Source: Acidobacteriota bacterium
GTDB lineage: Bacteria > Acidobacteriota > Blastocatellia > Pyrinomonadales > Pyrinomonadaceae
Length of the DNA stretch: 64,000 nucleotides
Reading direction: 5' to 3'
Assembly (NCBI GenBank): GCA_003697135.1
Contig: RFGC01000047.1
Location: 124,001-188,000 of the forward strand
Each line of letters starts with the position of its first letter. Within the stretch, counting starts at the first letter, position 1. This document shows positions 29,143 through 39,833 of this stretch, piece by piece. Under the pieces are notes generated by a model. It ran no database searches. It saw only the letters and a program-made list of their open reading frames with translations, and was not told where the DNA came from. A program made the translations under genes and the position numbers.

Positions 29143-30072
29143 ATGATGAAAAAATTGCATTACAAAGTCTTATTGCTTTTAGCCTTAGTTTCCTTCGGCT
29201 GTAAGTCACAAATCCCGCAGTCGGACTCTAGGGCTACAGATCGGCAAGCGCAAGATTATCGTGAAATCACAGATGATCTAGGCAGAAAAATCAAACTGCC
29301 TTTGAAGGTTGAACGTGCCGTTTCACTTTCACCGAATTTAACGGAAATCATTTTCGCTGTTGGTGCGGGCGATAGGCTAGTCGGCGTGACTACTTACTGC
29401 GATTATCCAGAACAGGCTAAACAAATCGAGAAAATCGGCGATACGCTCAGACCGAGTCTCGAAAAAATCGTCGCTCTTAAGCCCGACGTTGTTTTTGTCT
29501 CGACTGCATCGCAACTTAAAGGATTTGCCGATACTTTAGAGCGAAATGGCATAACCCTTTTCGTCACCGATCCCGATAGTTTTGAGAAGATTTATTCGAG
29601 CATCGAAAAAATCGGTGAGATTTTTCAAACCGAAGATCAAGCAAAAGCACTTGTCAATCAACTCAAAAGCCGTGTTGAAAAAGTTGAGCAAAGAGTCAAA
29701 GACCTGCCTAAACCGAGAGTTTTTGTGCAGATTGATAAATCTCTTTACACGGTCGGGAAAAATTCTTTCATCACGGATTTAGTGCGAAAAGCTGGTGGGA
29801 TTTCGGTAACGGAAGAGCTTGAAACGGATTATCCCAAGCTGAGCAAAGAAACCGCTTTAGCGTTGAATCCTGAAGTCATAATCATTACCGATAGCTACGA
29901 TAACAACGAGCCAAACGAGGTATTCAAAAATTCCGATGCGGTTAAGAACAAGAGAGTCTATATGGTGAATGCAGATATTCTATCGCGTCCCGGGCCAAGA
30001 ATTGTTGATGCATTGGAGCAGGTAGCTTCTTTGCTACACCCTGAAAGCGAAAAGTGCGAATGCGATAAATAG
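29143..30072 (+). CDS. btuF: Cobalamin-binding periplasmic lipoprotein BtuF
   Basis: 309 residues with a lipoprotein signal, lipid-anchored Cys20 (V-S-F-G-C). The class III helical-backbone metal/cobalamin-binding fold is indicated by VERAVSLSPNLTEIIFAVGAGDRLVGVTTYCDYP, the standard BtuF opening with the S-L-x-P-x-x-T-E motif, and by KIVALKPDVVF and GNSFITDLVRKAGGIS-like segments. It delivers B12 (or cobinamide) to BtuCD. First gene of the riboswitch-controlled operon. The riboswitch makes cobalamin a much better ligand guess than siderophore-iron. Confidence 0.93.
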   Translation: MMKKLHYKVLLLLALVSFGCKSQIPQSDSRATDRQAQDYREITDDLGRKIKLPLKVERAVSLSPNLTEIIFAVGAGDRLVGVTTYCDYPEQAKQIEKIGDTLRPSLEKIVALKPDVVFVSTASQLKGFADTLERNGITLFVTDPDSFEKIYSSIEKIGEIFQTEDQAKALVNQLKSRVEKVEQRVKDLPKPRVFVQIDKSLYTVGKNSFITDLVRKAGGISVTEELETDYPKLSKETALALNPEVIIITDSYDNNEPNEVFKNSDAVKNKRVYMVNADILSRPGPRIVDALEQVASLLHPESEKCECDK

Positions 30073-30089
30073 GCGTTTTGCAGAAGAAA

Positions 30090-31070
30090 ATGCTAGAAAC
30101 GGTCGGACAAAAAAGCAGATTCTTTCAACCACGTAGAACTTTGGCATTGCTCATCGTGTTACTTGTTTTCTGTCTAATGGCTTCTGTTTTTTTCGGGAGC
30201 GAGAACTTGAATTTTGCGGACTTGAGCAATTTGGAAAGAACGATTTTGTTTGATGTGCGACTACCTAGAATTTTTCTGGGTGCTTGTGTTGGTGCGAGTC
30301 TTGCACTTGCAGGAGCCGCTTTGCAGTCGCTTTTGAGAAATCCGCTTGCCGATCCTTATCTTCTAGGAGTTTCGAGTGGAGCGGCGCTTGGGACAATGCT
30401 TGCTTTTGTTTTCTTCACAAACTTTGAATTCCCGCGCCCAATTTTGGCTTTTATCGGAGCTTCAGCCGCCACATTTACGGTTTATCAGATGGCTAAATCG
30501 AAGGCAGGAATGAACGTTGAAAGATTGGCTTTATCGGGAGTAATCGTAACAACGCTTCTTTCTTCGATAATCATTCTCTTCACGTCGCTTCTTGATGCTA
30601 CGAAACTTAGAAGTTTCACGTTTTGGTTACTTGGAGACTTGTCGCAAGGGACGAAAAACGGATTTTATCTTGTTTTCATTTCGGCTATTCTTGGCGGGGT
30701 AGTTTTGTTTTCGCAAGCCAAAGCGCTGAATTTGATGATGATTGGCGAAAGAGATGCACTGGATTTCGGAGTTGAGGTTGAAAAGGTAAGGCTAATAGTT
30801 TTTGTAGCATCGGCGTTTTTGGTTGGTGTTTCGGTTTCTTCGAGTGGGTCTGTCGGGTATGTCGGGTTGATAATTCCGCATCTCATAAGGCTTTCCGTAG
30901 GTAGTGACAACCGGCTTGTTCTGCCTTTTTCAGCAATTGCCGGAGCGACATTTATAGTGTTTGCTGATACGATAGCCCGAACCATAATTGCACCGCGCGA
31001 GCTTCCCGTCGGTGCGATTACAGCGCTCATCGGTGCGCCTATGTTTATCTATCTTTTGAAAAGAAGTTGA
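30090..31070 (+). CDS. btuC: Cobalamin ABC transporter permease BtuC (FecCD family)
   Basis: 326 residues from the ATG at 30090; a TTG at 30078 would add four residues. About ten membrane helices of the FecCD/BtuC family, with the signature LRNPLADPYLLGVSSGAALG and, late in the sequence, GSVGYVGLIIPHLIRLSVGSDNR, the loop that contacts the ATPase. It forms the BtuC2D2 channel importing cobalamin from periplasmic BtuF. The gene starts 17 bp after btuF and ends 12 bp before btuD. Confidence 0.94.
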   Translation: MLETVGQKSRFFQPRRTLALLIVLLVFCLMASVFFGSENLNFADLSNLERTILFDVRLPRIFLGACVGASLALAGAALQSLLRNPLADPYLLGVSSGAALGTMLAFVFFTNFEFPRPILAFIGASAATFTVYQMAKSKAGMNVERLALSGVIVTTLLSSIIILFTSLLDATKLRSFTFWLLGDLSQGTKNGFYLVFISAILGGVVLFSQAKALNLMMIGERDALDFGVEVEKVRLIVFVASAFLVGVSVSSSGSVGYVGLIIPHLIRLSVGSDNRLVLPFSAIAGATFIVFADTIARTIIAPRELPVGAITALIGAPMFIYLLKRS

Positions 31071-31082
31071 AAGGTTTGGACG

Positions 31083-31853
31083 ATGCTAGAAGTCAAAAAC
31101 ATATCTGTTGGCTACAACGGTTCACCTGTGGTGAGAAACATATCGTTTACGCTTGAAAAAGGCAAAATTATAACCTTGCTCGGTGCGAACGGTTCGGGAA
31201 AAACGACTATTCTGAAAGCACTTAATTTGAGTTTGCCTTTGATAGAAGGCGAGATTTTGCTTGAAGGAAGGCTTTTGCAAAGTTTCACGCGCCGCGAGAT
31301 TGCAAGAAAAATCACTGTAGTTGCTCAGGAAACCGAAACAAAGTTTCCAGTAACGGTTCTTGAATTCGTTTTGGCAGGTAGATTCGCACACGGTTCGGCT
31401 TTCGGATGGGAGACACAGCAAGACTTACAAATAGCGCGTGAGTGCATAAAACTTTGCGATTTAGAAGGATATGAAGAACGCCTGATGAATCGGCTTTCGG
31501 GTGGAGAGCGGCAAAGAGCGGTCCTTGCACGCGCATTGGCAACACAAGCAAAAATTCTCTTGCTTGATGAGCCAACGAATAATCTCGACCTTTCGCATCA
31601 AGCATTGACTTTTAGATTGGTAAAGAATCGCTGTCAAAAATGCGATTCTGCGGCGATCGTGATAACGCACGATCTCAATTTAGCTTCAGAATTTGCGGAC
31701 GAAATCATATTGCTTTCAGGTGGAACCGTGTTGACAAAAGGCACGCCGCACGAAGTTTTGACCCAAGAAAATTTGCAAAAGGTTTTCAATGTTCGAGTTT
31801 TACTCGACGAAAATCCAATCAGCAGAAATTTAAGAATTACGGCAATATACTAG
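31083..31853 (+). CDS. btuD: Cobalamin ABC transporter ATPase BtuD (FecE family)
   Basis: A 256-residue ABC ATPase with Walker A GANGSGKTT (34-42), Q-loop AQETE, signature LSGGERQ (138-144), Walker B LLLDEPTNNLDL (159-170) and switch His in VITHDLN. Subfamily features (FTRREIARKITVVAQE, VLAGRFAH) place it with FecE/BtuD importers of iron chelates and B12. It powers BtuC within the riboswitch-controlled operon. Confidence 0.93.
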   Translation: MLEVKNISVGYNGSPVVRNISFTLEKGKIITLLGANGSGKTTILKALNLSLPLIEGEILLEGRLLQSFTRREIARKITVVAQETETKFPVTVLEFVLAGRFAHGSAFGWETQQDLQIARECIKLCDLEGYEERLMNRLSGGERQRAVLARALATQAKILLLDEPTNNLDLSHQALTFRLVKNRCQKCDSAAIVITHDLNLASEFADEIILLSGGTVLTKGTPHEVLTQENLQKVFNVRVLLDENPISRNLRITAIY

Positions 31854-31890
31854 CCGATCTTTTTACAAAACTACGAAAGGAGACAAGGTT

Positions 31891-34257
31891 ATGAAGATAA
31901 CGAAGGTTCTGGTCGCAATTTTGTTTTCAGTAATTTTTGTTTTCGGACAGCAGAAAACACGAGTTACAGGAACGCTGAAAGATGGCAATCAGCCTGTATC
32001 TTCAGCGAAAGTCAAGCTGGTTTCAGCAACAGAAAGTTTTGAAACGACAACGGACAATGAAGGGCAGTTTGTCTTTGAAGATGTAAGCGATGGCAGCTAT
32101 TTGCTGATTTACAACGACAAAAGAGCGTTGGTTACGGTCAAGAACGGAGAAGTTTCAATATCGAATTTGACCGATGTGGTTTTAGTCTCGGCAAATAGCT
32201 TTCAGCCAATAGAAGAAGTCTCGAAAACGGTTGATGTGATTGATTTTCAGCAGATTCAAGACCGAAGCGAGTTCTCTTTAGCTGAGAGCTTGAGAACGAT
32301 TCCGGGCTTTCGCATTCAACAACTCGGCGGTTTCGGACGCCTTGCAAGCGTTAAAACACGAGGCTTGCGAAATCAGGATACGGCGGTTTTGATTGATGGC
32401 GTTAGATTTCGCGATGCCGCTTCTATCTCCGGTGATGCGACCGCATTTTTGTCGGATTTTACTTTTACTGGGATTTCCAGAATTGAGGTTCTTCGAGGTG
32501 CGGGGTCATCGCTTTACGGAACGAATGCTATCGGTGGGACAATTGATCTTCAAACTCCAAGACCTAGCTCAGGTGTGAAGGGTGAAATTGGCGGGATACT
32601 TGGCGGATATGGCTTGGGAAGATTTCAAGCCAGATTCAGCGACGGGACAAAAGATGAAAAATTTGCTTATGGCTTGGGAGTGTCTCGAACAGCTTACACA
32701 AAGGGCATTGATGAACAAGACAACGCTCACAATACGAATTTCCAAGCACGCATCGAGTTCAATCCATTTCGCTCAACTAACATCTCAGCGAGGTTTTTCA
32801 TCTCAGACGCATACGTTCGGCTTAACTCAAGCCCCGATACAATAGGGACTTTACCTTCGACGAACGCGGTAATCATAAAGGCTATACCGCTTTCTCGTTC
32901 GGAGCTAAGAAGATACGAAACGGGAACGCCCATAAGCCAGCTCAATCGTGGGAATGCAACCTTTATCCCTGATGCCAACGATCCAGACAGCACTCAGAAG
33001 TCCAAATTCTTCAACGGGCAAGTGTCTTTGACTCAAGTTTTAAGAAGCGATTTGATTTTCCGAGCCTTTTATTCGGGCTTGAAAACTTCAAGGAGAAACG
33101 ATAATGGACCACTGGGAATTGGATTTCAAAGCGCTTCGACTTCGTTTTTCGATGGAACGATTCAAACCGTCAATGCAAGGCTGGATTGGACGCCGAATCG
33201 GGTTCACGAAATCACGATTGGCTACGAGTTCGAGCATGAGAAATTCGGTAATGACGGATTCACACCGACCGGGACAGGAAACTTTTTTACTAGAGCCTAT
33301 CAATCTAGCAATGCGTTTTTTGCCCAAGATGTGGTAAGGCTAATGGAAGGAAGATTGACTTTGAGCGGCGGATTTAGAACTCAGGTGTTCAATCTTGAAA
33401 CACCGAAATTCAGCCTTACGAATGCTCCTTATCAAAATCTTTCACTCGAGAATCCACCAACAGCCTACACTTTCGATGGCGCGGTTTCTTATTTCATTCA
33501 GCAGACAGGCACTAAATTCCGCGCTCACGTTGGAACGGGCTACCGAGTGCCGAGCCTTTATGAAAGATTCGGTAGTTTCTTCAGTTCGTTCTCTCAGAGC
33601 TTTGTGGCTTTAGGTGATCCGGATTTGGAACCTGAAAGAACAATCGGAATAGATGGCGGCATTGAACAATATCTTTTCGGCAATAACCTGAAACTTTCAG
33701 CCGTTTACTTCTACACAAAGTTGATAAGAACAATCGGTTTCGGAAGCCCTGTTCGCAACATTGGCACGACACAGCGTCCCTTCGGCGGTTACTTCAACAC
33801 ACAAGGCGGAATCGCACGTGGCGGTGAGTTTACAACAGAGGCTAAAATCGCCAAAACAACAAGCATCTTTGCATCTTACACCTACACAAACAGCGATCAA
33901 CGCCAGCCACAAGTTGCAGGAAGTGGAATAATAGAAACTTTAGCAATTCCAAAACACCAATTCACGCTTGTTGCAACTCAAAAAATTAAGCCATTTTGGA
34001 TAAATTTTGATCTTTTAGCAACAAGCAGTTATCTGGCTCCAATCTTCAGCAATTCAACATTCAGAAACTACATTTATCGTTTCGATGGAAATAGAAAAGC
34101 CGACTTAACTGTTAGCTACGAAGTGCCGATCAAAAAGGAAAATCTTCGTTTGCGAATCTCAGGAACCGTTGAAAACATTTTCAATGATGAATACTACGAA
34201 AACGGCTTCCGAACATTCGGGCGTTACGGACGTATAGGTTTTGGTTTCAGTTTCTAA
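31891..34257 (+). CDS. btuB: TonB-dependent outer-membrane receptor, BtuB-like cobalamin transporter
   Basis: 788 residues. Signal peptide about 1-20 (F-V-F-G-Q), an N-terminal carboxypeptidase-regulatory-like beta domain at 22-105 (VTGTLKDGNQPVSSAKVKL), a plug at about 110-225 with SLRTIPGFRIQQLGGFGR and RIEVLRGAGSSLYGTNAIGG, and a 22-strand barrel ending in the outer-membrane terminal Phe (GFGFSF). The plug resembles BtuB, and riboswitch control plus btuFCD upstream support cobalamin as substrate. The extra N-terminal domain is common in Bacteroidota and Acidobacteriota receptors. GGAGAC lies a few bases before the ATG. Confidence 0.9.
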   Translation: MKITKVLVAILFSVIFVFGQQKTRVTGTLKDGNQPVSSAKVKLVSATESFETTTDNEGQFVFEDVSDGSYLLIYNDKRALVTVKNGEVSISNLTDVVLVSANSFQPIEEVSKTVDVIDFQQIQDRSEFSLAESLRTIPGFRIQQLGGFGRLASVKTRGLRNQDTAVLIDGVRFRDAASISGDATAFLSDFTFTGISRIEVLRGAGSSLYGTNAIGGTIDLQTPRPSSGVKGEIGGILGGYGLGRFQARFSDGTKDEKFAYGLGVSRTAYTKGIDEQDNAHNTNFQARIEFNPFRSTNISARFFISDAYVRLNSSPDTIGTLPSTNAVIIKAIPLSRSELRRYETGTPISQLNRGNATFIPDANDPDSTQKSKFFNGQVSLTQVLRSDLIFRAFYSGLKTSRRNDNGPLGIGFQSASTSFFDGTIQTVNARLDWTPNRVHEITIGYEFEHEKFGNDGFTPTGTGNFFTRAYQSSNAFFAQDVVRLMEGRLTLSGGFRTQVFNLETPKFSLTNAPYQNLSLENPPTAYTFDGAVSYFIQQTGTKFRAHVGTGYRVPSLYERFGSFFSSFSQSFVALGDPDLEPERTIGIDGGIEQYLFGNNLKLSAVYFYTKLIRTIGFGSPVRNIGTTQRPFGGYFNTQGGIARGGEFTTEAKIAKTTSIFASYTYTNSDQRQPQVAGSGIIETLAIPKHQFTLVATQKIKPFWINFDLLATSSYLAPIFSNSTFRNYIYRFDGNRKADLTVSYEVPIKKENLRLRISGTVENIFNDEYYENGFRTFGRYGRIGFGFSF

Positions 34258-34367: not shown

Positions 34368-36326
34368 TCAGCGCCCGACGCATTCGACTTCGCTTTCTTC
34401 GACAAGATAAGGCGAAATCGGCTTTTCTTCTTCAGCTAAAATTCTTTTGGCGATTACTGGCAAAGCCAAGGATTTGGTTTTGCCAATTCCGGGCACCATT
34501 TTACCTTTTGCGTAAACAGGATGCCGGCCGTGAGTTTTATACCATTCAGCGACGGTAGCAGTCATGTGCATATTTTCTATGATTTGACGCCAGCCAACTC
34601 CTGTGTTATATGCACAGAAGCTTATCTCGCCTTCTTGCGTGCCGTATGGGATAACGCACATTTCGGTTCTTCGGAAATCGTATGTGTAGAGGTCTTGAAA
34701 CCACATACCTTCGATGCAAAGGACACGCCAAACGTCCTTTTCCGAAACAGGCTGTTTCATGCGGTCGTTTCTATCGGAATTTGAGCTTGTAGAAGATGGT
34801 TTGAAAAGGTTTATGATTTGAGAAATCGGAAAATCTTTTGGAGCTTTTTCGGGATTGTAGTTTCGCATTATTGCCATTGCAAGTTGCGCCATTGTGAGCT
34901 TTTTGCCGCGTGCCGTGTCGGTGATTACTGCAACGTCCTTCATGAATTGCTCATAGTTGAAGAACTCGAACAAAGATTTCATCTCACCTGTTTTTTTGTT
35001 CACGACTACGAGCGTGAAAATTCCGCAGTTAGGATGGCAATTGCACGATGACCAGCCCCAAGGAGCATCTGCGCCTTGAAGCATATCCATCACGCTTGTA
35101 AATGCCGAATATGACGAAAGCGGAAACCAATCTCTCAAAGGTTCAAGCGAAAGGCAATCCTTTAACTGATTTTTCAAATCATGCGCCATATCGGCAAGTG
35201 TGTATCGTTGTTTTTTGCGGACTTCATCGGAAACGTCTTCATCTCGTCCAGTGAAGCTGACGGGTTGAAATGCAATTGTTTGGATTTTATCAATGTTTGC
35301 CGCAGCGAACCTAACTATATCGCCGATGGCATCGTTGTTAATCGTATTAACGATTGTTGTTACCAAAGTTACCTTTATTCCGACTGATGCCAGGTTTTCG
35401 ATTGCCTTTAGCTTGACGTCGAAGAGATTGCCAACTCCGCGATGTTTGTTCTTTTCTTCGCCGATTCCATCGAATTGAAGATAAACTCCGTGTTGCCCTG
35501 CTTCTTTTGCTTTTCGGCAGAATTCTATATCTTCGGCATATCGAATTCCGTTCGTAGCCGCTAAAATTCTGTAGAAACCGATCTTTTTGGCGTAGGCTAC
35601 TGCATCAAGGAAGTGTGGTGACAGGGTTGGCTCTCCGCCAGAAAATAGAATAATGATTTGACGACGAGGTTTGAAACTAACGGCTCTGTCCAAAATCGCC
35701 TTTATATCTTCAAATGAAGGTTCATGAACGTAACCGACTTGGTTAGCGTCCATAAAACAAGGATTGCACATCATATTGCATCGGTTGGTAAGGTCAACCG
35801 TCAAGACTGCACCGCGCCCGAATTTTATGTCGGAAGTGCCATGATGGTGAACGTGAGCGTCATCGGCAGTGCGAAAGTCTCGCCCGAAGAAAAGCGACTC
35901 TATTCTTTTCAGAAAAGCGGCATCCGTAGCTAAAACGTCTTCAAAGAAGCCGTGTGTTGGGCAAGTTTTGCGAATGTAAATTTTGCCGTTTTCTTCAACT
36001 AATTGAGCTTTGATTTCGCCCGGATGCGAATACATCAAGACTTCAAGCGGAATATCGCCTTTGATGACGCCTTCGCGCACGATTTTAACGCACTTTGGAC
36101 AAAGAGAATCAGTTTCACGAGGAAATCCGAGCGGTGGGCGAGTTCTTTCGTAAGATTTCAAAAGCGGTGCTGGCGCCCACTTCGGATGAATTGATTTACC
36201 CTCAGGAAGCGCTGTGTTCACAGCTTGAAAAACTTTCCAACCTAAATCAGCAAGTTTCGATATTGCTTTTGAACCAGTTTTGCTGTCGGTTTGCGATTCG
36301 CCACGCCTAAAATTGTCTATGAACAT
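34368..36326 (-). CDS. Tes/MJ0619-like radical SAM protein
   Basis: 652 residues. Radical SAM core cysteines C183-x3-C187-x2-C190 in LTNRCNMMCNPCF, then the GGEP motif (230-233). An N-terminal Cys domain has CPKC (76-79) and CPTHG (Cys122). Further Cys groups are CNCHPNC (428-434) and C537, C557, C571 in the end region LYTYDFRRTEMCVIPYG...EISFCAYN. This whole arrangement matches the family of archaeal tetraether lipid synthase (Tes) and MJ0619, which carry extra iron-sulfur clusters and a rubredoxin-like site and join or methylate unactivated carbons. Bacterial members are thought to make membrane-spanning lipids, but this is not proven for this protein. Neighbours are an SDR and a CruA/CruP-like flavoprotein. 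Confidence 0.85.
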   Translation of the reverse strand: MFIDNFRRGESQTDSKTGSKAISKLADLGWKVFQAVNTALPEGKSIHPKWAPAPLLKSYERTRPPLGFPRETDSLCPKCVKIVREGVIKGDIPLEVLMYSHPGEIKAQLVEENGKIYIRKTCPTHGFFEDVLATDAAFLKRIESLFFGRDFRTADDAHVHHHGTSDIKFGRGAVLTVDLTNRCNMMCNPCFMDANQVGYVHEPSFEDIKAILDRAVSFKPRRQIIILFSGGEPTLSPHFLDAVAYAKKIGFYRILAATNGIRYAEDIEFCRKAKEAGQHGVYLQFDGIGEEKNKHRGVGNLFDVKLKAIENLASVGIKVTLVTTIVNTINNDAIGDIVRFAAANIDKIQTIAFQPVSFTGRDEDVSDEVRKKQRYTLADMAHDLKNQLKDCLSLEPLRDWFPLSSYSAFTSVMDMLQGADAPWGWSSCNCHPNCGIFTLVVVNKKTGEMKSLFEFFNYEQFMKDVAVITDTARGKKLTMAQLAMAIMRNYNPEKAPKDFPISQIINLFKPSSTSSNSDRNDRMKQPVSEKDVWRVLCIEGMWFQDLYTYDFRRTEMCVIPYGTQEGEISFCAYNTGVGWRQIIENMHMTATVAEWYKTHGRHPVYAKGKMVPGIGKTKSLALPVIAKRILAEEEKPISPYLVEESEVECVGR

Positions 36327-36490
36327 AATCTTTAAGCTCCAAAAGCGGTTTCCAATCTTTGCGAAAATACCTGCCTTTTAGACTAGCAGATTTTCCGCTT
36401 CATTCAAAATCTTGCTCCTAAAAGCAAGGCTTCAGATTCAGTTGGTAAATCCAAGATTGAAAGAGTTGAAATGAGATTTAACCGAAAAGC

Positions 36491-37216
36491 CTATATTAGC
36501 TGATGGCTTTCGGGCATCAAGGCAATCTCGGCAACCACGCCTTCACCATCTTGAGTAGCGGCGAAAAATATGGCTCTAGCCGCATCTTCAACCGTGAGCA
36601 TTTTTGAACGATCAACTCTCATCGTAGTTATCCCGTCCCAAAAGGTTGAATCAACACCGCCGAAATGCATCAGCGAGAATCTTATTCCGCTTCGTTTATA
36701 TTCTTCTTTCAAGCACTTTATCATTCCCGTTAAGCCGTATTTAGCGGCACAATAAACTGAGGCTTGAGCCATCGGGGCTTTGCCTAAAACTCCCGGTATC
36801 ATTACGACTCTGCCGAATTTCTTTTCCGCCATCACAGGCAAAACCGTTTTCAAAACGACAAAGGCAGTCTTGAGATTTGCGTTTATCGAGTCTTCAAAAT
36901 CTTTCAGCGTCAGAGCATCGAAAGGTTTCAAGATGCCCAAACCAGCCGTGTGAATGAGAAAATCAATCGAGCCGAATTTTTTCAAAGTTTCGTCAACAAG
37001 CGTTTGAACGTCAGATTGAACGCTTGCGTCAACTTCCATAGCCAAGACGTTCGGATTGCCCTTTGAGTTGAGTTTATACTCAAGCTCCATCAGTTCAGCA
37101 AAATTCCTTGAACAGATAACCACGTTGGCACGGGCTTCAGAAAAAAGCTCTGCGGTGGCGCGTCCAATACCGCGTCCTGCGCCTACTATGAGAACAGTCT
37201 TACCTTCAAGATTCAT
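36491..37216 (-). CDS. Short-chain dehydrogenase/reductase family protein
   Basis: A 241-residue Rossmann protein with the NAD(P) site VGAGRGIGRA (11-20) and the Y155-x3-K159 pair in SVYCAAKYGLTGM. The canonical catalytic Ser, expected 13 residues before the Tyr, is Gly142 here (MIPGVLGKAPM), so catalysis may be weak or altered. A ribosome-binding site GGGGAGG precedes the ATG. It lies between the CruA/CruP-like and Tes-like genes on the same strand (147 and 164 bp gaps). Substrate unknown; a 3-oxoacyl or polyprenyl-type substrate would fit the neighbourhood but is conjecture. Confidence 0.85.
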   Translation of the reverse strand: MNLEGKTVLIVGAGRGIGRATAELFSEARANVVICSRNFAELMELEYKLNSKGNPNVLAMEVDASVQSDVQTLVDETLKKFGSIDFLIHTAGLGILKPFDALTLKDFEDSINANLKTAFVVLKTVLPVMAEKKFGRVVMIPGVLGKAPMAQASVYCAAKYGLTGMIKCLKEEYKRSGIRFSLMHFGGVDSTFWDGITTMRVDRSKMLTVEDAARAIFFAATQDGEGVVAEIALMPESHQLI

Positions 37217-37363
37217 GTTTGACCTCCCCTTGCTCGCTTTTTAATAGTTCTAAACGTTTAATTTAACGAATTTTAGATGAAAAATCATCTTAAGCAATTC
37301 ACATTTCGATAATCGTATCAGTCGAAAGAATATCAAATTGTCTGTGTTTAGAAAGTCTAGAAA

Positions 37364-38989
37364 TCATTTGCCACTATCGAGTGCGAATTCTTTTCTCGGA
37401 TTCTTTGTTTTTTCGCTCCAAAAAGCCTCAAAGATATTTGCGATCCACCAAAAAGAGCCTTTAACTCCTAAATGCTCGAACATCAGCCTGAAGACTTTTG
37501 GGTGAATTTGTGCTGTTTTCGCGAGCACCTTCCTAAGGGACGAAAATTTGATTCGGTCTTGGAAAAGCTCTCTAGCGATTTCCGGGTCGAGTTTACTTAG
37601 CGCCATCATTACTGCATTCATTGTTTCGTTCACGACGGAAGGTTTGCTTTTTGGTGCTGGACGCATGAACTCTGCCAGACTTGCCATCTGTGCAACGTTT
37701 GGCTCATAGGTGTTTATTTGTGAAAGCGATTTTTCGTCCAGCGAATTCTCGCTTAAAACTTCTTCAACCATTCTCGTGAGTTTGCAGAAATTCCTTACGA
37801 AAGAACCGAAACCGCAAAAAGTCAGTGGACTGGAAAGACCTGCAGAATCGCCGATTAAGAGAACTCGATCAACGGCTACTTTTTTCAAATTGTTCCAGCC
37901 GTGATGGTGAAAGCTCGGAATATAGCCGAAAACGGGTTTGATCACTCGCCAATTCCCGGTTCTAATTTTGTAATCCGAAATTTTTTCAAAGTATTCTTCA
38001 AAAAGCCTGAATAGCGATTTGTCTGCATTGGAGTTAACGGAATCATAAAAGAAAAGATAAGTTGTGTATTCGTCTTTTTCAGGACTTCCGGCGAAACCTT
38101 CCCAAATAAGCTGACGTCCGTCGGTGATGTCTTCGGTCGAAACCAAAATTTCCCCAACCGAAAAATCAACTTCTCTTTGGTCATTACCTCTTTGAAAGCC
38201 TCTTGCAATGGTTCCCACAGTCGGACAAACATGAGTAATTGATTTTCCAGCATTGATTTGTCTTGAAACAGGTGAGTTCGTTCCCATAGCGTCTATGAAC
38301 AGTTTTCCACTGAAAAGCCTTTTTCTGCCTGTTTTGACTTCTTCGCATTCGACAATGACCTTTTCCTTCAAAACATAAACGCGCTTGAAGCGAAGGTAGC
38401 TTTCAGTCTTTGAGTTGTTTTGCTTGAGTTTTTCTAATGCCAATGCGAGCAATTTATTTGCGTCGAGTGCTACGTTTAGAACATCTTTCATGAAAAGTGG
38501 TGGAGTTTTGATCTTTGAGTTTTCGTCATAAAACTTCACAAAGCCCGTTTTGTAGCGATTCACAACTGCTTGTTCGATTTCTTCTTGACTGAATAAGCCT
38601 GCTTTCGTGAGTTCTTTTAGTTCTTGATCTGAAATGTTCCAATCTCTATGAGTTTTTCCGACTGTGAATGCGTCAAACGCAAGCACTTTGCGGTTGTATT
38701 TTGTGCTCATCAAAGCGGCATGCAAAAGTCCCAAAGTTCCACCAGCGTAGATTATTTCAAAATCTTTTTCTATGGCATCTTCCAGCTTTGAAACTGTTTG
38801 CGGCGAAAAAAGAATCACTTCCTCGAAAGCATTGGGATTTTGCATGAAAGAATTCCAACGTTCCTCCAGTGCCCAGATGCGCCTTAGATATTCTTCTCTA
38901 TTCGGTAAAGAGCCAAGATTTTCTACCAGAAGCGGATATTTTTTACGGATTTCCGAAAGGTTAAGTTCTTTTATTGCGGTTTTCTCCAT
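37364..38989 (-). CDS. CruA/CruP-like FAD-dependent lycopene-cyclase-family protein
   Basis: 541 residues. The N-terminal FAD site is YAGGTLGLLHA (81-91), followed by THRDWNISDQELKELTKAGLFS, the counterpart of the REQEWNISR-x-E-L segment of CruA/CruP. The C-terminal flavin motif is VDRVLLIGDSAGLSSPLTFCGFGSF (GDSAG 380-384), and a YEPN motif (INTYEPNVAQ) follows. CruA enzymes cyclise lycopene in green sulfur bacteria and some cyanobacteria; CruP paralogues lack clear cyclase activity. No crtB or crtI is in the window, so carotenoid cyclisation here is unproven. The gene is upstream of the SDR and Tes-like genes. Confidence 0.82.
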   Translation of the reverse strand: MEKTAIKELNLSEIRKKYPLLVENLGSLPNREEYLRRIWALEERWNSFMQNPNAFEEVILFSPQTVSKLEDAIEKDFEIIYAGGTLGLLHAALMSTKYNRKVLAFDAFTVGKTHRDWNISDQELKELTKAGLFSQEEIEQAVVNRYKTGFVKFYDENSKIKTPPLFMKDVLNVALDANKLLALALEKLKQNNSKTESYLRFKRVYVLKEKVIVECEEVKTGRKRLFSGKLFIDAMGTNSPVSRQINAGKSITHVCPTVGTIARGFQRGNDQREVDFSVGEILVSTEDITDGRQLIWEGFAGSPEKDEYTTYLFFYDSVNSNADKSLFRLFEEYFEKISDYKIRTGNWRVIKPVFGYIPSFHHHGWNNLKKVAVDRVLLIGDSAGLSSPLTFCGFGSFVRNFCKLTRMVEEVLSENSLDEKSLSQINTYEPNVAQMASLAEFMRPAPKSKPSVVNETMNAVMMALSKLDPEIARELFQDRIKFSSLRKVLAKTAQIHPKVFRLMFEHLGVKGSFWWIANIFEAFWSEKTKNPRKEFALDSGK

Positions 38990-39038
38990 ATCGCCTTTTG
39001 TTAAAAGAAAGCGTTTGCTGATGCCGAGAAAGCCGGGA

Positions 39039-39833
39039 TTATGAATGTTTAGCTTTTTCCCAAAGTTCGTCCATTTCGCTCAGCTTTGCTTCTTCGAGCC
39101 TTTTTCCGCTTGCTTTCAGTTCTTCTTCGATTTTGCCAAAACGAGTTCTGAATTTTCGATTTGTTCTCTTCAGAGCGGTTTCTGGTTCAATGCCGAGTTT
39201 TCTTGCAAGGTTTACTACAGCAAACAGCAGATCACCGATTTCTTCTTCAACATGCGTCTTTTCTCCTTTTTTGATAGCTTCTTTTAACTCCTTGATTTCT
39301 TCTTCCAGTTTCTCGAAAACCTGTTCCGCGTTTTCCCAATCGAAGCCGACTTTTGAAGCTTCCTTCGTAAGTTTCAAGGCTTCCATAAGTGCCGGAAAAC
39401 TGGCAGGAACGTTGTCAAGAAGAGAATCTTTGGCCTTCTTGCCTCTTTTTTCCCTTTCGTTGGCTTTGAGTTTATCCCAATTTTGCAAAACTTCTGATGC
39501 AGTTGTGAATCTTTTATCTCCGAAAACGTGCGGATGCCTTAGAATCAACTTTTCGTTTATGCCATTGATTATCTCGTCAATCGTAAAATCGCCGTTTTCT
39601 TCGGCAATTACTGAATGAAAAACAACTTGAAGAAGAACGTCGCCCAATTCTTCTTTGAGCGCTGTTTTGTTGTTTTCTTTTTCAGCCTTTTCGATTGCTT
39701 CAAAAGTTTCGTAGCATTCTTCAAGAAGGTAAGGCGCAAGGCTGGAGTGGGTTTGCTCTCTATCCCAAGGACATCCACCCGGCGCACGAAGTCTTCTCAT
39801 CGTTGCCATCAATTCGTCAAACGCTTTCGACAT
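39039..39833 (-). CDS. mazG: Nucleoside triphosphate pyrophosphohydrolase MazG
   Basis: 264 residues with two MazG domains. The first carries GGCPWDREQTHSSLAPYLLEECYE and EELGDVLLQVVFHSVIAEE, the second EEIGDLLFAVVNLARKLG; the E-E-x-x-D sets bind magnesium. It hydrolyses non-canonical or excess NTPs to NMP and pyrophosphate, cleaning the nucleotide pool and affecting ppGpp levels in E. coli. Length equals the E. coli enzyme. It starts the minus-strand run that continues into the CruA-like gene 49 bp downstream. Confidence 0.95.
   Translation of the reverse strand: MSKAFDELMATMRRLRAPGGCPWDREQTHSSLAPYLLEECYETFEAIEKAEKENNKTALKEELGDVLLQVVFHSVIAEENGDFTIDEIINGINEKLILRHPHVFGDKRFTTASEVLQNWDKLKANEREKRGKKAKDSLLDNVPASFPALMEALKLTKEASKVGFDWENAEQVFEKLEEEIKELKEAIKKGEKTHVEEEIGDLLFAVVNLARKLGIEPETALKRTNRKFRTRFGKIEEELKASGKRLEEAKLSEMDELWEKAKHS

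Follow-up and report, generated by a model that had tools for sequence, protein, structure and literature searches.

A divergent Tes-like radical SAM protein of Pyrinomonadaceae, with relatives encoded beside lipid A genes, is a candidate lipid tail-coupling enzyme

A 64,000-nucleotide stretch of DNA (the window) from an acidobacterium of the family Pyrinomonadaceae carries a gene for a radical S-adenosylmethionine (SAM) protein related to Tes, also called GDGT-MAS. The protein belongs to a group, here called type A, that lacks the cysteines of one metal cluster of Tes, departs from both Tes and a second acidobacterial group (type B) at two otherwise invariant Gln positions, and is encoded beside lipid A genes in three lineages. 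Our tentative reading of these sequence features, to which we give a probability of roughly 0.4, is that type A proteins are tail-to-tail C-C coupling enzymes of the Tes kind, probably acting on lipid A or another envelope lipid. Branched tetraethers are a main palaeothermometer for soils and lakes, hence the interest in acidobacterial enzymes that make membrane-spanning lipids.

An earlier note on this DNA had recognized a Tes-related radical SAM enzyme, and this assignment holds far beyond chance. The window protein matches the NCBIfam Tes model (NF045702) with E=8.5e-97 and, by sequence, the Methanocaldococcus jannaschii GDGT-MAS (MJ0619; PDB 7TOL) with E=4.8e-69. Its score of 324.8 bits is below the equivalog cut-off of that model (450 bits), and Tes-proper proteins of other acidobacteria score 474-619 bits. 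Pfam matches are to Radical_SAM and to the HMPTM zinc-ribbon domain. A predicted structure built from 40 relatives (predicted template modeling score, pTM, 0.85) matches 7TOL in Foldseek with E=1.1e-34 and a TM score of 0.86 over the target, and the next unrelated structure follows at 5e-9; the overall fold, at the level that such a comparison with 7TOL and 7TOM addresses (E ~1e-34), is that of Tes. The gene is under strong purifying selection, with pS of 0.76 (synonymous sites are saturated) and pN of 0.058 against the sister species. Plasmid-borne relatives are distant only (<30% identity). Pterin methylation was considered as an activity and is unsupported; for MJ0619, Lloyd et al. were unable to corroborate such an activity (PMC9433317).

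MJ0619 has four metal sites: a rubredoxin-type iron (ligands C9, C12, C33, and H36), an N-terminal cluster termed [Fe4S4]N (C73, C77, C80, and a His), the radical SAM cluster, and a C-terminal cluster termed [Fe4S4]C that carries the labile Met439 (PMC9433317). We compared these sites by aligning MJ0619 with 71 proteins of type A, 59 of type B, and 9 of Tes proper, and individual Cys residues were assigned to [Fe4S4]C from this alignment. The rubredoxin-type, radical SAM (CX3CX2C), and C-terminal cluster positions are conserved, labile Met included, and so are MJ0619 Q268, S271, R275, Y195, and D199, with Y459 nearly always present; virtually every type A sequence has the catalytic residues of MJ0619. 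The three [Fe4S4]N cysteines occur in 9/9 Tes-proper proteins and MJ0619 but in none of the 71 type A and 59 type B proteins. The window protein has HVHHHGTS in their place, which leaves it without one of the four metallocofactors that mark Tes. The earlier note had credited it with every Cys group of the family: CPKC, CPTH, CNMMCNPC, CNCHPNC, and FCAYN are indeed present, but the second CxxxCxxC of Tes, that of [Fe4S4]N, is gone. That claim was wrong because the CxxxCxxC observed is the radical SAM motif only, and the N-terminal cluster cysteines are all lost.

Two further positions set type A apart. At the equivalents of MJ0619 Q141 and Q169, Gln is present in 59/59 type B proteins and in all Tes proteins, whereas the first position is Leu in 71/71 type A proteins and the second is Leu, Ile, or Met in all of them. 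The window protein has hydrophobic residues at both (L227 and L255) and is placed on the type A branch of the tree. Both positions lie on strands of the radical SAM barrel in the predicted structure, where they may line the substrate pocket.

In MJ0619, a hydrogen is abstracted at the end of a saturated tail, the carbon is held on a cluster sulfur, and the radical of a second tail attacks it (PMC9433317). Tail-to-tail coupling is our best guess for the reaction of type A because the parts of MJ0619 that do the coupling are kept. The 5'-deoxyadenosyl radical would take a hydrogen from the end of a saturated lipid tail, the tail carbon would then become bound to [Fe4S4]C through one of its sulfurs, and the radical of another tail would attack this carbon to give the C-C bond. 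Type A might instead have left lipid coupling and act on an envelope lipid by a different radical reaction, such as methylation, cyclization, desaturation, or hydroxylation of an acyl chain. Such a departure would fit the missing N-terminal cluster and the replacement of two conserved Gln residues, and radical SAM superfamilies are generally known to diversify readily. However, type A retains the ligands of [Fe4S4]C, the labile Met, and the residues that bind SAM, all of which are tied to C-C coupling in MJ0619 (PMC9433317). Y459 is also nearly always conserved. We consider a change of chemistry clearly unlikely.

The window genome (2.79 Mb in 47 contigs, 97% complete) holds a second Tes-like gene, of type B, whose product has 57% identity to that of the type A gene. 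Among 99 genomes of the family, type B occurs in almost every one, and type A is missing from some that are near complete. A survey of 198 genomes across the phylum found type B in the majority of families with a Tes-like gene of any kind and type A only in the Pyrinomonadaceae and two other families (f29 and f42). A further group, at 34-41% identity, passes the Tes cut-off where tested. Outside the Acidobacteriota, type A occurs in rare Planctomycetota and KSB1 genomes. Type A, type B, and Tes proper separate in two trees. In the more careful tree, the type A clade has support of 98/88 with KSB1 and 100/100 without it, and type B is a grade around type A, not a clade. The sister of type A (100/100) is a pair of Latescibacterota and Calditrichota proteins that retain both Gln residues, and types A and B do not group with Tes proper, from which a long branch with 100/100 support divides them.

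Some individual members of these groups have features of their own. The type B gene of the window genome lies near a run of SurE-like, protein-isoaspartate-methyltransferase-like, and DedA-like genes that recurs in other members of the family. In the KSB1 stretch L188 (JAABYK010000470.1, 3440-6866), the type A-like gene encodes L and M at the Gln positions and lies 56 bp downstream of an open reading frame (ORF) resembling a B12-binding radical SAM protein. Five f29 genomes (G132, G172, G196, G204, and G249) have type A with no type B match at E<=1e-200, and several of them carry a separate Tes-proper gene; genomes of this kind are useful for telling the functions apart.

Outside the subclade of the window, most type A genes lie beside lipid A genes, in three arrangements and in two phyla; the linked members on the tree are the Planctomycetota row, f29, and basal Pyrinomonadaceae. 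For these comparisons, the identities of LpxA, LpxB, LpxC, and LpxD were checked and are above NCBIfam cut-offs. In Pyrinomonas methylaliphatogenes K22 (L179, on the same contig as G022:C8), the type A gene is divergent from lpxA-lpxD, with lpxB beyond. In f29, lpxD follows 31-349 bp downstream of type A on the same strand, and lpxB lies ~2.8 kb upstream. A Planctomycetota metagenome-assembled genome (L181; JAJDCN010000143.1) has lpxD, lpxC/fabZ, an lpxA-like stretch, and lpxB, with type A last. By eye, the latter run also includes BamA-like and OmpH/Skp-like ORFs, and a binning error is possible for this assembly.

An lpx gene is in reach in 39/78 type A stretches, a count that includes a dozen stretches fetched twice under two ids (~34/66 without them) and three weak hits 4.5-6.5 kb away, versus 3/52 type B stretches, where the hits are to lpxC only. 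For these reasons, and because related genomes are not independent, the p value for this contrast (~3e-8) is indicative only. A held-out check in the class of genome G256 placed lpxD within 1.5 kb of 12/13 type A genes and 0/17 type B genes, and four type A genes from previously unseen genomes were all beside lpxD. The subclade of the window has lost this ancestral linkage.

We infer both the reaction and the substrate of type A, the latter pointing to lipid A because of the linkage to lpxA, lpxD, and lpxB. The substrate would be an envelope lipid outside the phospholipid pool of type B, most likely lipid A or its acyl chains, and the enzyme of the window would have kept its function after the linkage was lost. 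A more specific version is that type A couples lipid A acyl chains at their tail ends, or joins lipid A to an inner-leaflet phospholipid, giving a cross-linked or outer-membrane-spanning lipopolysaccharide. We regard this version as doubtful, leaning toward unlikely.

Several points weigh against a lipid A coupling function. No lpx gene was found close to a type A gene in the subclade of the window, the window gene included, and lpxB of the window genome is on another contig. LpxB is present in 90/99 family genomes, with or without type A; therefore, type A is not needed for lipid A and would be at most an accessory to it. Gene neighborhood is indirect evidence, and the three linked lineages may share one ancestral linkage. 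A search of the open-access literature found no lipid A structure for these bacteria. That the Q141 and Q169 positions face the substrate is a supposition, and an enzyme without [Fe4S4]N could have altered chemistry.

Type A could also be a second iso-diabolic acid synthase, an isozyme of type B that serves another chain length, head group, ether/ester state, or growth condition, with the lpx linkage reflecting a mere envelope-lipid neighborhood. The two types share a superfamily and the same catalytic residues, several f29 genomes seem to have type A without type B, iso-diabolic acid is widely found among Acidobacteriota (PMC12816986), and a role in making branched glycerol dialkyl glycerol tetraethers (brGDGTs) has been proposed for Tes homologues (PMC8941075, PMC10087280). 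However, two Gln residues that are otherwise invariant in the family are changed in every type A protein, the lipid A linkage is consistent for type A and lacking for type B, and most acidobacterial families have type B alone. In addition, the brGDGT producer Edaphobacter aggregans has one Tes homologue, at 32% identity (PMC8941075), which at that identity is probably of type B. On balance, an isozyme is possible, but the odds are against it.

Because type B is widespread in the phylum and is probably represented by the single homologue of E. aggregans, it is a better candidate than type A for making phospholipid iso-diabolic acid. The earlier note had linked the window protein to iso-diabolic acid; a lipid function by tail coupling is plausible in view of the catalytic parts of MJ0619 that are kept, but the presence of the type B paralogue and its wider spread make the iso-diabolic acid assignment weaker than stated. 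Solibacter usitatus has two Tes homologues and makes brGDGTs but no iso-diabolic acid (PMC10087280), so that a given enzyme does not translate directly into a given lipid. A PF09989 search found no PlsA/Ger-type ether-lipid gene in the window genome; brGDGTs made by the PlsA/Ger route are therefore not expected there, whereas the acidobacterial genome G163, which has Tes proper, has two such proteins. The latter are encoded elsewhere in G163 than its type B and Tes-proper genes, which lie ~6 kb apart (G163:C24, L128), and this organism is a good candidate brGDGT producer.

The window gene is preceded on the minus strand by mazG, a gene for a flavin adenine dinucleotide (FAD)-type protein labeled CruA/CruP-like (here, Cru-like), and a gene for a short-chain dehydrogenase/reductase (SDR), with gaps of 49, 147, and 164 bp (Table 1). 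The Cru-like, SDR, and Tes-like genes are present on one strand as the earlier note had reported for 34368-39833; the mazG ORF, which lies within the same interval, went unmentioned there. The note had further proposed that the Tes-like enzyme, the SDR, and the Cru-like protein form a single lipid or isoprenoid locus. Their common strand, the gaps of 164 and 147 bp, an SDR gene that adjoins the Tes-like gene in the sister species (G021) also, and the phytoene synthase carried by the window genome would all suit this proposal.

However, we examined the surroundings of ~29 type A genes and 11 type B genes of the family, in stretches no longer than 20 kb, and a Cru-like gene was beside a Tes-like gene in the window only; none was near a Tes-like gene in 80 named relatives from other genomes. 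Tes-like genes occur in 96 and Cru-like genes in 40 of the 99 family genomes. In the sister species, the two are on the same contig ~265 kb apart, and the usual neighbor of the Cru-like gene is mazG, close upstream in 13 loci. The SDR gene adjoins type A only within the genus (window and sister species) and lies within 8 kb of it in three other genomes, giving 5 of ~29 family loci in all. The three genes were together in no other genome examined. The proposed joint locus thus fails on the conservation of gene order that the note itself had named as its test, and we judge it highly improbable. By any evidence found, the Cru-like and SDR genes are chance neighbors and not functional partners of the Tes-like gene.

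The CruA/CruP label is likewise unconfirmed, with no significant Pfam, NCBIfam, or PDB match, although these libraries may hold no CruA/CruP model. A profile of the Cru-like protein finds one protein in each of two Chloracidobacterium-like genomes (E ~1e-154). Of the 40 genomes with a Cru-like gene, some of them incomplete, 15 lack phytoene synthase, and the two genes co-occur only weakly over the 99 genomes (odds ratio 2.0, p 0.15).

On the plus strand, a run encoding a periplasmic binding protein, a permease, an ATPase, and a TonB-dependent receptor (29143-34257) converges on the Tes-like gene and is, by sequence, a putative corrinoid or metal-chelate uptake cluster. A terminator scan gave nothing above shuffled sequences, and promoter-like sites are in slight excess over shuffles.

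Table 1. Genes and diagnostic residues of the type A locus, with the type B gene of the same genome
Feature	Position	Strand	Remarks
Type A Tes-like radical SAM protein, 652 aa	34368..36326	-	
M541-C571, C-terminal cluster domain	34614..34706	-	M541 (labile Met, M439), C557 (C455), Y561 (Y459), C571 (C470); MJ0619 residues in parentheses
CNCHPNC (C428, C430, C434)	35025..35045	-	C434 = MJ0619 C338, inferred [Fe4S4]C ligand
QPVSFTGR loop, SAM/5'-deoxyadenosine binding	35244..35267	-	MJ0619 Q268, S271, R275, by alignment
L255	35562..35564	-	MJ0619 Q169; type A specific substitution
L227	35646..35648	-	MJ0619 Q141; type A specific substitution
CNMMCNPC, radical SAM cluster motif	35757..35780	-	C183, C187, C190
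HVHHHGTSDIK, position of lost [Fe4S4]N	35823..35855	-	MJ0619 C73/C77/C80
CPTH, second half of rubredoxin-type site	35952..35963	-	C122, H125 (MJ0619 C33, H36)
CPKC, first half of rubredoxin-type iron site	36090..36101	-	C76, C79; motif from PMC9433317
SDR family oxidoreductase, 241 aa	36491..37216	-	Pfam adh_short E=4e-45
FAD-type protein, 541 aa	37364..38989	-	labeled CruA/CruP-like in the earlier note
mazG nucleotide pyrophosphohydrolase	39039..39833	-	conserved upstream neighbor of Cru-like gene
Type B Tes-like gene of the window genome	G000:C20:69879-71696 (L060)		

Tes homologues in Acidobacteria and a proposed role for them in bacterial membrane-spanning lipids have already been published (PMC8941075; PMC10087280), and the activity of bacterial Tes homologues has been called unconfirmed (PMC11868695). 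In the open-access literature, we found the division into types A and B, the absence of [Fe4S4]N, and the neighborhood of lipid A genes nowhere described, and nothing relevant on radical SAM genes with a part in lipid A synthesis or on lipid A that contains iso-diabolic acid. Surveys in which every Tes homologue counts as a potential maker of brGDGTs or iso-diabolic acid may pool at least three groups, with types A and B counted in alongside Tes proper. If type A does act on lipid A, this would be a new way to build an outer membrane, and the coupling of lipid A tails would be a modification of lipid A, and a role for Tes-type chemistry, of which we found no description.

Among known systems, the CruA/CruP lycopene cyclases resemble the Cru-like protein in its FAD-type N-terminal and GDAAG-type C-terminal motifs (by eye), but the latter has no library match and no link to the Tes-like gene. 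Type B, as represented by the copy in the window genome, shares with the type A protein of the window 53-58% identity, the same loss of [Fe4S4]N, and the same CxCHPNC motif. It differs in keeping both Gln residues, in having Leu instead of P203, and in occurring in most acidobacterial families and several other phyla, with no linkage to lpxA, lpxB, or lpxD found. The tested bacterial membrane-spanning lipid synthase is Mss, a Bacillota enzyme (Sahonero-Canavesi et al. 2022); it is reported to couple fatty acyl tails, the reaction proposed here for type A, and to have a modeled architecture that is Tes-like (PMC13274423, PMC11868695). With Tes/GDGT-MAS (MJ0619, MA_1486, and Saci_0703), the window protein shares the fold, the rubredoxin-type site, the radical SAM cluster, the C-terminal cluster with its labile Met, and the SAM-binding residues. 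It differs from these enzymes in its bacterial host, its missing [Fe4S4]N cysteines, two additional cysteines relative to MJ0619 (C428 and C430), Leu at the Q141 and Q169 positions, a lower score (325 vs 450 bits), and the ancestral linkage of type A to lipid A genes.

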